Source: Myxococcaceae bacterium
GTDB taxonomy: Bacteria; Myxococcota; Myxococcia; Myxococcales; Myxococcaceae
Assembly (NCBI GenBank): GCA_003818285.1
Contig: RPRB01000012.1
Coordinates: forward strand, 1 to 56,318
Direction of reading: 5' to 3'
DNA: 56,318 bases
This document shows positions 28,250 through 56,072 of the stretch, in pieces. Under the pieces are notes generated by a model. That model was not told the origin of the DNA and did not search any database. It was given only the letters and a program-made list of their open reading frames with translations. How positions within the stretch are numbered: position 1 is the stretch's first letter; every line of letters starts with the position of its first letter. Both the position numbers and the translations under genes were made by a program.

Positions 28250-28265
28250 GACCGCGGGAGCGGTC
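28250..28265. terminator. Hairpin between convergent gene ends
   Basis: GACCGC-GGGA-GCGGTC is a perfect 6-4-6 stem-loop placed right between the stop of the small membrane protein gene and the stop of the ExbD gene. It would serve both strands. No T-run follows on the plus strand beyond TACTT. Confidence 0.5.
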
Positions 28266-28840
28266 TACTTGAGCGCGGCGGTCTTCTCGCCGCCCTCGCC
28301 GGTGGCGCCGCGGAGCACCGCGAAGTTGATGTTCCCGTAGCCGCCGCCCTGGCAGCTGAACATCACCCGCTTGATGATCCGGAAGGGCACGTCCTTGTGC
28401 CCCTGGATGTTCACCACGCCCTTGAAGGCCGTGCCGTCGTTGGCCAGGGCGTGGAGCTCCTCGGTCTCCTTCTTCTGCTCGCGGAGCTTCTCCTCCAGCG
28501 CGGGGATGGTGACGTAGTCGTCCCGCGAGAGGTCGGCCACCCGGGCCACCGAGATGCCGTTGATGATGATGTCGTCGTTGCTGACCATGATCACCGGCGC
28601 CAGCTCCAGCTCGTCCACGTGCGTGGCGGTGGGCAGCTGGATGTCCTTGGTCATGTTCAGGATCTCTCCCGTCGCCGAGAAGTTGGCGATCAGGAAGAGC
28701 ACGATGATCACGAACATGTCGACCAGTGGCGTGATCAGGAGATCCGCGTTGGTGGACTTGTGCGCGGCATGTCCATGCCCGAAGACCTTCGACTTCCTGA
28801 GGCGCTTGCCGAAGCGCTTGCCCGGGGTTTCGATGGCCAT
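28265..28840 (-). CDS. ExbD/TolR-family biopolymer transporter, second copy
   Basis: The 191-residue protein has a basic N-terminus, one membrane helix with the essential Asp (NADLLITPLVDMFVIIVLFLIAN), and a periplasmic domain. With the partner ExbB/TolQ protein it would harness proton flow for energising outer membrane processes. It begins 2 bp after the stop of the first ExbD gene. The periplasmic domain (VSNDDIIINGISVARV) follows TolR-like lines but is longer than usual, with a helical KLREQKKETEELHAL insertion. Confidence 0.9.
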   Translation of the reverse strand: MAIETPGKRFGKRLRKSKVFGHGHAAHKSTNADLLITPLVDMFVIIVLFLIANFSATGEILNMTKDIQLPTATHVDELELAPVIMVSNDDIIINGISVARVADLSRDDYVTIPALEEKLREQKKETEELHALANDGTAFKGVVNIQGHKDVPFRIIKRVMFSCQGGGYGNINFAVLRGATGEGGEKTAALK

Positions 28841-28842
28841 GG

Positions 28843-29325
28843 TCAGGTACTCACGGGCGCGACCGACACCGAGGGGAAGCCGTCACCGATGCATTCGTCG
28901 ATGACGTGCACCAGGTCCTCGTAACGGACCGCGTCCTCGGTCTGCACGGTGATCGCCGTCTGGTCGGGGCCGAGCTTCTCCTTCACGTCCTTGAAACGCT
29001 CGGAGAGCTTGGTGAGGTCGATCTGCTGCTTGGCGTCCCGGACGATGAGGATGGGGTCGAAGCTGGTGGTGCCGACCGTGAGCCGGAGGTCCTTCTCCGA
29101 GAGGAGCAGCGTCACCGGGACGGTCTTGTCGTCCTTCTCCGGCGTGGGGTCGCCGTCGCCGCCGCCACCGGAGACTTGGAGGCGCCCGATCTGCGTCCAC
29201 ACTGCGGTCATGATGAGGAAGCTGATGGTCACTGCCATCAGGTCGATGAAGGGGACCAGGTTGATGGTGGCGTCCAAGGGCTTCTTGGGGCCCTTGGCAT
29301 CACCGAGGTCCATCCCGCCGGCCAT
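28843..29325 (-). CDS. ExbD/TolR-family biopolymer transporter, first copy
   Basis: The 160-residue protein has its single membrane helix in INLVPFIDLMAVTISFLIMTAVW with the conserved Asp, then a Gly/Asp-rich linker (GGGGDGDPTPEKDD), and a TolR-like periplasmic fold (VTLLLSEKDLRLTVG). Its genes sit between ExbB and a second ExbD in one operon. Systems with two ExbD proteins are common in Myxococcota and are linked to TonB-like transport or motility machineries. The substrate system is not identified here; a TonB-like kinase lies 22 kb away. Confidence 0.9.
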   Translation of the reverse strand: MAGGMDLGDAKGPKKPLDATINLVPFIDLMAVTISFLIMTAVWTQIGRLQVSGGGGDGDPTPEKDDKTVPVTLLLSEKDLRLTVGTTSFDPILIVRDAKQQIDLTKLSERFKDVKEKLGPDQTAITVQTEDAVRYEDLVHVIDECIGDGFPSVSVAPVST

Positions 29326-29374
29326 GCGCGCTCTCTCCGGTCTCTAGGGTGTGGCGTGGGAGTCGACGAGGCCG

Positions 29375-30109
29375 CTAGTCCTCGTCGCGTCCTGCGGAGA
29401 CGGTCAGGTTCTTGAACTTGTCCTTGTTGTTCACCACCAGGTTCAGCACCGAGACGCTGGTCTCGTTGATGTCGTTGATCAGGCTCTGCGTCCGACCGTT
29501 GAGGACCGAGAACATGATCAGCGCCGGGATGGCGATGAGCAGCCCGAAGAAGGTGCAGTTCATCGCCTCGGAGATGCCCTGGGAGAGGATGGTGGCCTTG
29601 TCCGCCGGGTTCACGTGGGCCACGGCCTCGAAGCACTGGATCAGACCGTTCACCGTTCCGAGGAGTCCGGCGAGCATCGCCGCGTTCCCGAGCATCGCCA
29701 GGTAGCCGGTGCGGGCCTCGAGCTTGGGCGTCTCGCGGAGGCTGGCCTCGTCCAGGGCCGCCTGCACCTCGTCCTCGCCCTTGGGCACGTTCATCAGACC
29801 CGCCTTCACCACGTTGGTGAGCGGGGTGCTCTTCTGGCCGGCCACGTAGTTGATCGCCTTGTCCAGGTCACCGGCGTAGATGTGCTTCTTCAGCCCCCGC
29901 AGGAAGCCGTCCTTGTTGATCGGCGCGGAGAAGAAGAGCACCACTATCCGCTCGATGATGATCGCCAGGGCGATCACGCCGCAGATGGCGATGGGGTACA
30001 TGCCGCTCTTGCCGGCGCGGAAGCGCGCGGCCATCTGGTCGAAGAAGGAGCCGGACGCGGTCGCCTCGGCGGCGAGCAGCGTCAGCTTGGTCAGGAGCCC
30101 CACGGTCAT
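29375..30109 (-). CDS. MotA/TolQ/ExbB proton channel family protein
   Basis: The 244-residue protein has three expected membrane regions: an N-terminal one (SGMYPIAICGVIALAIIIERIVVLFF), and the conserved pair GYLAMLGNAAMLAGLLGTVNGLIQCFEAV and GISEAMNCTFFGLLIAIPALIMFSVLN. The GLLGTV...GISEA spacing is the channel signature. It is the first gene of an ExbB-ExbD-ExbD operon and probably forms a pentameric channel with ExbD helices inside. A Thr-rich N-terminal region is short. A promoter with a TTGACA box lies about 95 bp upstream. Confidence 0.93.
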   Translation of the reverse strand: MTVGLLTKLTLLAAEATASGSFFDQMAARFRAGKSGMYPIAICGVIALAIIIERIVVLFFSAPINKDGFLRGLKKHIYAGDLDKAINYVAGQKSTPLTNVVKAGLMNVPKGEDEVQAALDEASLRETPKLEARTGYLAMLGNAAMLAGLLGTVNGLIQCFEAVAHVNPADKATILSQGISEAMNCTFFGLLIAIPALIMFSVLNGRTQSLINDINETSVSVLNLVVNNKDKFKNLTVSAGRDED

Positions 30110-51055: not shown

Positions 51056-51157
51056 AGCGGAGAGGGCGAAAGCGTCCCATGCCGTGTGGCGGTGGGAGCA
51101 AGGGCGCGCATGGACGTTGCGACGGCTCGGGCCCGGGTGCTAGAGGCCCCGTCCGAA

Positions 51158-51697
51158 ATGGTGAACGTGTCCGTCGCCCGCCGTTACGCCCGGGCGCTCC
51201 TCGAGGCGAGCGCTCCCGGCGACGTGGTCGGCATCGCCGATCAGCTGAGCGCGCTGGCCGGGCTGGTGGCGTCGAATCCGGCGCTGGGCGACGTCATCGA
51301 GAATCCTGCCTACTCCCGCGCACAGCGGCACGGAGTGGTGGATGGGCTGAGCCAGCTGCTGAAGGTCGAGTCGACCATGCTGCGCAACTTCCTTCGCCTG
51401 CTGGTGGACCGCCACCGGCTCGCGATGCTCCCCGACATCGCACGGCTCTTCCGGGACATGGCGGACGAGAAGGCCGGGCGGGTGCGGGGAACCGTGGTGA
51501 GCGCCATTCCGCTCGACCCCCAGTCCATCCGACAGCTCGAGTCGACACTGTCACAGGTCGTGCAGAAGCAGGTGGTGCTCGAGACCCGCGTGGATCAGGA
51601 GGTCCTGGGCGGGGTGAGCACCCAGGTCGGCTCGGTGGTGTTCGACGGAACGCTGCGCAGCCAGCTCGACGACCTGAAGCGCGCACTTCAGAGCTAG
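51158..51697 (+). CDS. atpH: F1F0 ATP synthase delta subunit
   Basis: The 179-residue subunit (OSCP-type) joins F1 to the peripheral stalk. The N-terminal helical domain (VNVSVARRYARALLEASAPGDVVGIADQLSALA, LRNFLRLLVDRHRLAMLPDIARLFRDMADEKAGRVRGTVVSA) and the C-terminal part (SQVVQKQVVLETRVDQEVLGGVSTQVGSVVFDGTLRSQLDDLKRAL) are typical. The ATG at 51158 fits. It is not next to atpA or the b subunit; a kinase gene and then a 670-bp gap separate it from atpA. Confidence 0.95.
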   Translation: MVNVSVARRYARALLEASAPGDVVGIADQLSALAGLVASNPALGDVIENPAYSRAQRHGVVDGLSQLLKVESTMLRNFLRLLVDRHRLAMLPDIARLFRDMADEKAGRVRGTVVSAIPLDPQSIRQLESTLSQVVQKQVVLETRVDQEVLGGVSTQVGSVVFDGTLRSQLDDLKRALQS

Positions 51698-51811: not shown

Positions 51812-53857
51812 ATGCTCGAGGGCGATCCCCAAGGCCCTGTTCCATCCGTCGTCGGTGCCGCCGATCCGCTGATCGGCCGCATCCTGAACGACCGCTTCCG
51901 CATCCTGTCGCCGCTGGGCTCCGGCGGAATGGGGAAGGTCTACAAGGCGGTGCAGACTCCGCTCGACCGCGTGGTGGCGCTGAAGATCCTCAACCCGAAC
52001 TTCCCGGCGGAGAAGGATCCGGCGTTCAAGCGGCGCTTCTTTCTCGAGGCCAGCCTCACCTCGAAGCTCCGCCATCCGAACACGGTCACCGTCATCGACT
52101 ACGGGCAGACCGAGGACGGCATCTACTTCATCGCCATGGAGTACATGGAGGGGCAGACGCTGGCCGAGGTGCTGGCGCACGAGAAGACCCTTCCCTGGCG
52201 GCGGGTGCTCGACATCGCCCAGCAGATCTGCCGCTCGCTGCGCGAGGCGCACAAGCTGGGCGTCATCCACCGTGACCTCAAGCCGGCCAACGTGATGCTC
52301 CTGAACGAGGCCGACCACGACATGGTCAAGGTCCTCGACTTCGGGCTGGTGAAGTCGTTCCTCGCGACCGATGGCCAGGCCGGCGATCCCGAGGTCACCC
52401 AGAACGGGGTCTTCCTGGGCAGCCCGCAGTACATGGCGCCGGAGCAGGCCCGGAACGTGGCGGACCCGCGGAGTGACGTCTACTCGCTGGGCATCCTCGT
52501 CTACCAGATGCTCGCCGGCCGTCCGCCGTTCCAGGGCAAGGACTACCTCGAGGTCATCTTCCAGCACATGAAGGAGCTGCCCCGGCCGGTGCGGGATCTG
52601 AATCCCGCCGCCGAGGTTCCGCCGGAGGTGGAGGCGGTGGTGCTGCGCTGCCTCCAGAAGGACCCGACGGCGCGTTATCAGTCGATGGACGAGGTGCTCG
52701 AGGCGCTGCGCGAGGCCGCGCTGCTCACCGGGATGAGCAGCATCTTCCCCGAGCGGCGCACGACCACCGGCTCGGGTCCGATGTCCACCTCGGGGATCCA
52801 CGCGCGGGCCGGGTCGGGTCCGATGTCCACGTCCGGGCTTCACGCGCGCAACATCTCGGGCCCAGTCACCGCGCCCCGCGCACAGGTCGACCGGGAGATC
52901 GAGATCGAGGACGCGGGCGAGCCGAGGAAGGGCGGCAGGCTCCTTCCGGCGCTGCTCTTCGTCAGCGCGGTCCTCCTCGGATTCGTGGTGGTGTGGCTGC
53001 TCCTGCCCAAGGGAGAGCAGGCCCAGGTGGTGACCACCCCGCCGCCGCAGCCGGCGCCCGTTCCGGCTCCGGTGGTCGCCGCGCCGAAGCCGCCCGAGCC
53101 GGCTCCGGCACCCGAGAAGAAGATGGTGCGCTTCCACGTCTCCACCGAGCCGGCCGGGGCGCACGTCTTCATCGGACGTCACGACATGGGGACGACTCCC
53201 ACTGTCTTCGAGCTCCCGGCCGGCGCCGACGGAATGGCCAACGCCGAGATGGTGCTGGCGCTCGATGGATATCCGACGCAAGCCATCACCTCCGGCGGCT
53301 CGGGCGACGTGGTCGTGAACGCCAAGCTGCAGAAGAAGGTCGTGATGCGCGTCGAGAAGCCGGTGCCGCTCACCAAGCGCGAGGAGGAGCGTGAGCGCGA
53401 CGAGGGCAAGGCGGCCCCGGTGGCGGTCCGTGCCGAGGCGGGCGCCGCGGCGGCGGTGGCTCGCGGTGCGTCGACCCAGCCCCAGGCACAGCCGGCCTCC
53501 GTCGGCTCCACCGCGACGAAGCCGGCGCAGGCGCCCGCGGCTCCGGCGGCGGAGGCGCCCCGCGACGTGGTGCCGTTCGGCGAAGGCATGACCCGTCCGG
53601 TGCTCCTCCAGTCCGGGCGGCCCATCACCTACAGCCGCGAGGCGATCGCGGCCCGGGTGGAGGGGGTGAGCATCGTCCGCTGCGTCATCACCGCCGAGGG
53701 GGCAGTGGAGCGGTGCAAGGTGATCAAGCCGCTACCCTTCATGGACGAGGCAGTGGTCGAGCACCTCCAGACCCAGCGGTTCCAGCCCGTCTCCTACCAG
53801 GGCCACCCGGTCTCGGTGGGGTACAACTTCTCCGTCCGCTTGACCCTGCCGAGGTAG
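51812..53857 (+). CDS. Ser/Thr protein kinase fused to PEGA-like and TonB C-terminal domains
   Basis: The 681-residue protein has a complete kinase domain at about 27-300: GSGGMGKV, Lys58, HRDLKPAN at 153-160, DFG at 176-178, and APEQ at 209-212. A Ser/Thr-rich linker contains a 14-residue repeat (GSGPMSTSGIHARA, then GSGPMSTSGLHARN). One membrane helix (378-398) leads outside to a Pro-rich spacer, a PEGA-like beta domain (438-508), and a TonB C-terminal domain (593-680: PITYSREAIAARVEGVSIVR, LPFMDEAVVEHLQTQRFQPV, VGYNFSVRLTLP). The kinase is therefore cytoplasmic and the TonB-like tail periplasmic. The ATG at 51812 is preferred over earlier GTG starts. Confidence 0.88.
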   Translation: MLEGDPQGPVPSVVGAADPLIGRILNDRFRILSPLGSGGMGKVYKAVQTPLDRVVALKILNPNFPAEKDPAFKRRFFLEASLTSKLRHPNTVTVIDYGQTEDGIYFIAMEYMEGQTLAEVLAHEKTLPWRRVLDIAQQICRSLREAHKLGVIHRDLKPANVMLLNEADHDMVKVLDFGLVKSFLATDGQAGDPEVTQNGVFLGSPQYMAPEQARNVADPRSDVYSLGILVYQMLAGRPPFQGKDYLEVIFQHMKELPRPVRDLNPAAEVPPEVEAVVLRCLQKDPTARYQSMDEVLEALREAALLTGMSSIFPERRTTTGSGPMSTSGIHARAGSGPMSTSGLHARNISGPVTAPRAQVDREIEIEDAGEPRKGGRLLPALLFVSAVLLGFVVVWLLLPKGEQAQVVTTPPPQPAPVPAPVVAAPKPPEPAPAPEKKMVRFHVSTEPAGAHVFIGRHDMGTTPTVFELPAGADGMANAEMVLALDGYPTQAITSGGSGDVVVNAKLQKKVVMRVEKPVPLTKREEERERDEGKAAPVAVRAEAGAAAAVARGASTQPQAQPASVGSTATKPAQAPAAPAAEAPRDVVPFGEGMTRPVLLQSGRPITYSREAIAARVEGVSIVRCVITAEGAVERCKVIKPLPFMDEAVVEHLQTQRFQPVSYQGHPVSVGYNFSVRLTLPR

Positions 53858-54527: not shown

Positions 54528-56068
<1,541 letters not shown>

Positions 56069-56072
<4 letters not shown>

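Follow-up and report, generated by a model that had tools for sequence, protein, structure and literature searches.

A predicted transmembrane Ser/Thr kinase with a TonB C-terminal domain in the Myxococcaceae

The 56,318-nucleotide stretch of Myxococcaceae DNA analysed here (the window) carries at positions 51812–53857 of the forward strand an open reading frame of 681 amino acids, which starts with an ATG at 51812 preceded by a GGAG. The N-terminus of the protein, MLEGDPQGP, is kept in two orthologs (L031 and L087). The gene lies, as the initial annotation had it, between atpH (51155–51697, +; TIGR01145) and atpA (54528–56072, +; TIGR00962), both of which are context and probably outside its function. 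The same annotation had described a complete kinase, one membrane helix and a TonB_C-like end, and all three were borne out by Pfam matches, catalytic motifs and hydropathy. A protein kinase domain (aa 31–295; 51902–52696, +) is followed by a single transmembrane helix (aa ~377–398; 52940–53005, +), a Pro/Ala-rich spacer predicted to be periplasmic (aa 399–434; 53006–53113, +), a PEGA-like domain (aa 435–510; 53114–53341, +), a poorly conserved Ala/Pro-rich linker (aa 511–592; 53342–53587, +) and a TonB C-terminal domain (CTD; aa 593–681; 53588–53854, +). Hydropathy predicts an extracytoplasmic region after the membrane helix, and the overall architecture is that of a transmembrane Hanks-type kinase. 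We infer that the kinase lies inside the cell and the tail in the periplasm.

The genome is a draft of 502 contigs, and two genes might have been joined by an assembly or gene-calling artefact. A whole-protein scan of the genome collection gave two loci only, and the survey was hence run through whole genomes. There, a kinase with a TonB_C end was found in 34 further distinct sequences from 12 genera of the Myxococcaceae, a family of predatory bacteria. The reading frame is continuous in all of them, including those from the one-contig genomes G023, G007 and G028, and the artefact, to which we assign practically no probability, is refuted by these orthologs. In 17 other full-length sequences aligned with the window protein, the order of kinase, helix, PEGA-like region, linker and TonB_C is kept, which excludes a chance explanation. 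We conclude that the fusion is a genuine single protein. It is apparently missing from about half of the sampled genera of the family.

The kinase domain matches the Pfam family PF00069 with an E value of 2.6e-51 and has all its catalytic motifs intact, namely GSGGMGKVY, VALK (K58), HRD (D155), DFG (D176) and APE. Its nearest solved structures are PknB, PknA and related kinases. Fusion kinases of the family share 63–93% identity with the window kinase, while any other compared kinase reaches at most 44%, and in a tree they form one clade (support 99/96). The combination of a transmembrane kinase with an extracytoplasmic sensor is itself well established. Kinases of the PknB/PASTA type resemble the fusion in having a cytoplasmic Hanks kinase, one helix and an extracytoplasmic sensor, but they carry PASTA repeats where the fusion has a PEGA-like region and TonB_C. 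PASTA repeats are absent from the window protein, and it scores 318 bits against the NCBIfam PASTA-kinase model (PknB/Stk1), for which the cut-off is 450. Between the kinase and the membrane helix, residues 311–372 hold repeated Thr/Ser-rich (T)TGP/SGPMSTSG motifs, which are possible autophosphorylation sites.

The PEGA-like domain noted by the initial annotation corresponds to a stretch that is indeed conserved among orthologs (dN/dS ~0.13 between the window and L031), but its Pfam score of 17.3 bits lies below the cut-off of 20.8. Scores in three orthologs, the window protein included, were 17.3, 19.2 and 20.2 bits, and PEGA went undetected in a fourth. The structure model of this region is all-beta, of low confidence and too weak to use.

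At the C-terminus, Pfam TonB_C matches residues 605–675 with an E value of 5.1e-14 (52.9 bits, cut-off 24.6). A PDB search with a profile of twelve tails matched TonB chains exclusively, the best with an E value of 3e-5. An AlphaFold model of the tail, built from two sequences (the window and L031) and of moderate quality (mean pLDDT 68), has the element order helix–strand–strand–helix–strand. This model proved to be TonB-like: in a Foldseek search its 17 best matches were CTDs of TonB, FusB and HasB. The best of them, TonB bound to FoxA, gave a TM-score of 0.72 with an E value of 2e-3 and a probability of 1.0. No match in this search reached an E value of 0.001, consistent with the moderate quality of the model. 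The two outcomes that would have spoken against the initial annotation, a tail model unlike TonB and a fusion that is not conserved, were both contradicted. The tail is under purifying selection, with a dN/dS of ~0.09 between the window and L031; the value for the kinase is ~0.11.

Outside the kinases, the tail is most closely related to TonBs of the host family. It shares 55% identity with the Oar-type TonB of the host (L103, contig C49) and 54–55% identity, over 89 residues, with the Oar-linked TonB1 type. When the kinase tails were compared with 19 TonB CTDs, which were those chosen as Oar type, 23 positions conserved at 85% or more were common to both sets and two differences were fixed. 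The last strand, V79-D80-Y81-x-F83-L87, is largely common to kinase tails and Oar-type TonBs; in TonB, this strand pairs with the TonB box of the receptor. A second group of TonBs, found beside a histidine kinase and a response regulator, is about equally close to the tail. A tree of TonB_C domains, built from tails of 90 residues, has too little sequence behind it to decide between one and several origins of the kinase tails, or to single out the source TonB. By these sequence comparisons, the tail is a member of the TonB repertoire of the family and lies near the type used by Oar-like transporters. Several smaller features were noted. Cys624 and Cys635, on adjacent strands and eleven positions from each other, are kept in the kinase tails and in family TonBs (L103, L099), and a disulphide between them is possible. 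The Oar-type TonBs (L103:7670–8377, L099:7271–8026) have a glycine–valine repeat linker, GGVVGGVVGG, before the CTD, which the kinases do not have. Members of the second group (L034:4336–5625, L048:5264–6046) have an S-x3-H helix and adjoin the histidine kinase and response regulator, with no ExbB–ExbD nearby.

In TonB and TolA, the helix that docks on the motor carries the pattern S-x3-H...L...S (PMC8928145, PMC12204202), in which S-x3-H is required for motor binding (PMC8928145). This motif is absent from the window helix, which has no histidine, and from all 34 other family fusions, whose helices likewise contain no histidine, as well as from the 13 Acidobacteriota fusions scored (see below). 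In contrast, 34 of the 38 TonBs scored in the same order carry it. The helix region of the fusions is also poorly conserved. The closest known relative on the TonB side, TonB1 of the Myxococcus xanthus Oar system (TonB–ExbB–ExbD–ExbD–Oar, PMC6434023), is like the fusion in its CTD, Cys pair, last strand and Pro-rich spacer. TonB1 differs in its N-terminus, which is short and contains the S-x3-H helix for docking on ExbB; at this place the fusion has an entire kinase, followed by a helix that lacks the motif. Since the ExbB–ExbD docking helix is missing, the tail is most likely unpowered.

These counts bear on the coupling to ExbB–ExbD proposed by the initial annotation, according to which the motor would pull the chain as it pulls TonB and the kinase would report transport work or envelope tension. 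In favour of this proposal, the membrane orientation and the order of domains after the helix are TonB-like, and an ExbB–ExbD–ExbD operon is present in the window (28265–30109, −), 22 kb from the kinase gene as had been noted. The operon is, however, of another motor type than the Oar-type Ton set of the host, which lies on a different contig (C49, L103) and consists of a TonB, ExbB–ExbD–ExbD and an Oar-like receptor. Identity between the two sets is 34% for ExbB and 27–35% for the ExbDs. The window ExbB has its own family orthologs at 76–77% identity, and no TonB gene was found beside the window set or beside the ExbB orthologs in the stretches seen. Oar-type TonBs of the family, by comparison, are 235–251 aa long and adjoin ExbB–ExbD–ExbD and a receptor of ~1050 aa (CarboxypepD_reg, Plug, barrel), an arrangement that matches the Oar system of M. 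xanthus (PMC6434023). We therefore rejected the nearby set as a partner of the kinase. With the motif missing throughout the fusions and the helix region poorly conserved, the kinase is probably not driven by ExbB–ExbD, and we consider an energised kinase very improbable. The window set seems to resemble the AglR–AglQ–AglS gliding motor and may be that motor. Its ExbD at 28843–29325 has Asp28 within FIDLM.

Of the readings considered, we favour a receptor kinase whose TonB tail would contact outer-membrane receptors passively, as a sensor or tether that no motor powers; for this reading we hold belief and doubt to be about equal. In a rival reading, suggested by a CTD surface like that of TonB on a chain that lacks the motor helix, the tail would compete with TonB for TonB boxes and the kinase, perhaps autophosphorylated, would damp or gate the energisation of transporters as an unpowered antagonist. 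Such competition is conceivable in a cell whose genome also encodes a true TonB–ExbB–ExbD–ExbD–receptor set, but it leaves unexplained why a full, conserved catalytic kinase was retained, and we judge it improbable.

The fusion gene does not lie beside ExbB–ExbD or TBDT (TonB-dependent transporter) genes, where the gene of a TonB energy transducer would be expected, and no TBDT gene adjoined it in any neighbourhood examined; its neighbours are either atpH and atpA or HAD and che genes. Most genera that carry the fusion have it between a HAD phosphatase gene, beyond which lies gltX, and a divergent CheW–CheR–MCP cluster. An orthologous CheR was not found in the window genus (30–38% matches only) or in G021 (none), to which the atpH–kinase–atpA arrangement is limited. 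In 13 other family genomes the gap between atpH and atpA is ~1.8 kb. Two of these gaps were read; one (L074:1546–3027, the annotated one) contains a 493-aa histidine kinase (PAS-PAS-HisKA) and the other (L079:2076–3566) a gene of 496 aa. In several other families of the order, atpH and atpA are adjacent. In the family, the gap seems to accommodate signalling genes. A function tied to ATP synthase was rejected as a conserved trait, as elsewhere in the family the gap holds a PAS histidine kinase or nothing; the kinase is placed there in the window genus and G021 alone, so that the link is a local rearrangement. A scan for promoters and terminators gave no signal above chance. G021 has two atpH–kinase loci, L088 (C11) and L087 (C63), whose kinases have diverged and one of which is cut by a contig end; they reflect a strain mixture or a duplication.

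The che neighbourhood without a TBDT is one of the observations behind the main rival to our reading, namely that the tail senses a target other than a TBDT, such as peptidoglycan, an envelope protein or another copy of itself, in the manner of PASTA kinases and without any link to transporters. The kinase is PknB-like, the ectodomain also contains a PEGA-like domain, and TonB_C domains may dimerise or bind peptidoglycan or other proteins. A new ligand would nevertheless be expected to leave more drift than is seen in the tail, where the TonB positions and the last strand are almost unchanged and two differences are fixed. We regard such non-TBDT periplasmic sensing as unlikely; the TonB competitor and the energised kinase are less likely still.

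In the reading that we favour, a PknB-like receptor kinase would have acquired a TonB CTD, its motor-docking helix having been replaced by the kinase and a different helix. The tail would reach across the periplasm and pair with the TonB box of TBDTs, or detect an unoccupied box. Upon binding, release or clustering, the cytoplasmic kinase would change its state and then phosphorylate its targets. We infer both the pairing of the tail with TonB boxes and the control of kinase activity, and a role in sensing outer-membrane receptors is plausible. In M. xanthus, the CTD of TonB1 is bound by the N-terminal region of Oar, as are those of two further host TonBs and even that of the E. coli protein (PMC6434023). 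Since the kinase tail is a close relative of these CTDs, it could bind Oar too. Oar is needed for PopC secretion and development in myxobacteria (PMC6434023), where Oar/TonB1 two-hybrid constructs exist, so that a test of this reading would need a single additional bait.

If this is true, such a TonB-tailed kinase would read the outer membrane directly from the inner membrane, with no motor to power it. Known TBDT signalling runs from TonB-powered receptors to anti-sigma factors. Few signals are known for the large kinomes of these bacteria, and a recognisable sensor domain would supply one. No paper describing a kinase–TonB fusion was found among the searchable literature, and the word "kinase" is absent from a 2025 survey of TolA/TonB force transducers (PMC12204202). 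The architecture is very likely listed in automatic domain databases.

Comparable proteins were also found outside the Myxococcota. In a sample of 40 Acidobacteriota genomes, at least 15 long proteins from 9 genomes combine a kinase or kinase-like domain with a C-terminal TonB_C. The kinase–TM–(PEGA)–TonB_C proteins among them (for example L202, L230 and L216) have the same domain order as the window fusion, and L202 has two strong PEGA matches between kinase and TonB_C. They share with it the lack of S-x3-H, which was absent from all 13 that were scored. They differ in their kinases, which belong to several lineages outside the Myxococcaceae clade and are in some cases apparently degenerate, in a TonB_C of the ordinary type and, in some, in extra TPR or N-terminal parts. 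These sequences suggest apparently separate, repeated origins of the kinase–TM–TonB_C design, with the motor motif absent in every case. We propose tentatively, and with rather less assurance than for the window protein, that the fusions of Myxococcota and Acidobacteriota may represent a class of receptor kinases that has recurred by acquiring the TonB CTD but not the motor-docking helix, in which transporter engagement would be read as cytoplasmic phosphorylation and the TonB box would be read without proton-motive force. A TonB_C joined to a partner other than a motor helix is also seen in MxcH-type receptors (NF038079), against whose model the window tail scores weakly (21.3 bits, cut-off 925). 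In these receptors TonB_C is N-terminal, and its partner is an outer-membrane barrel instead of an inner-membrane kinase.
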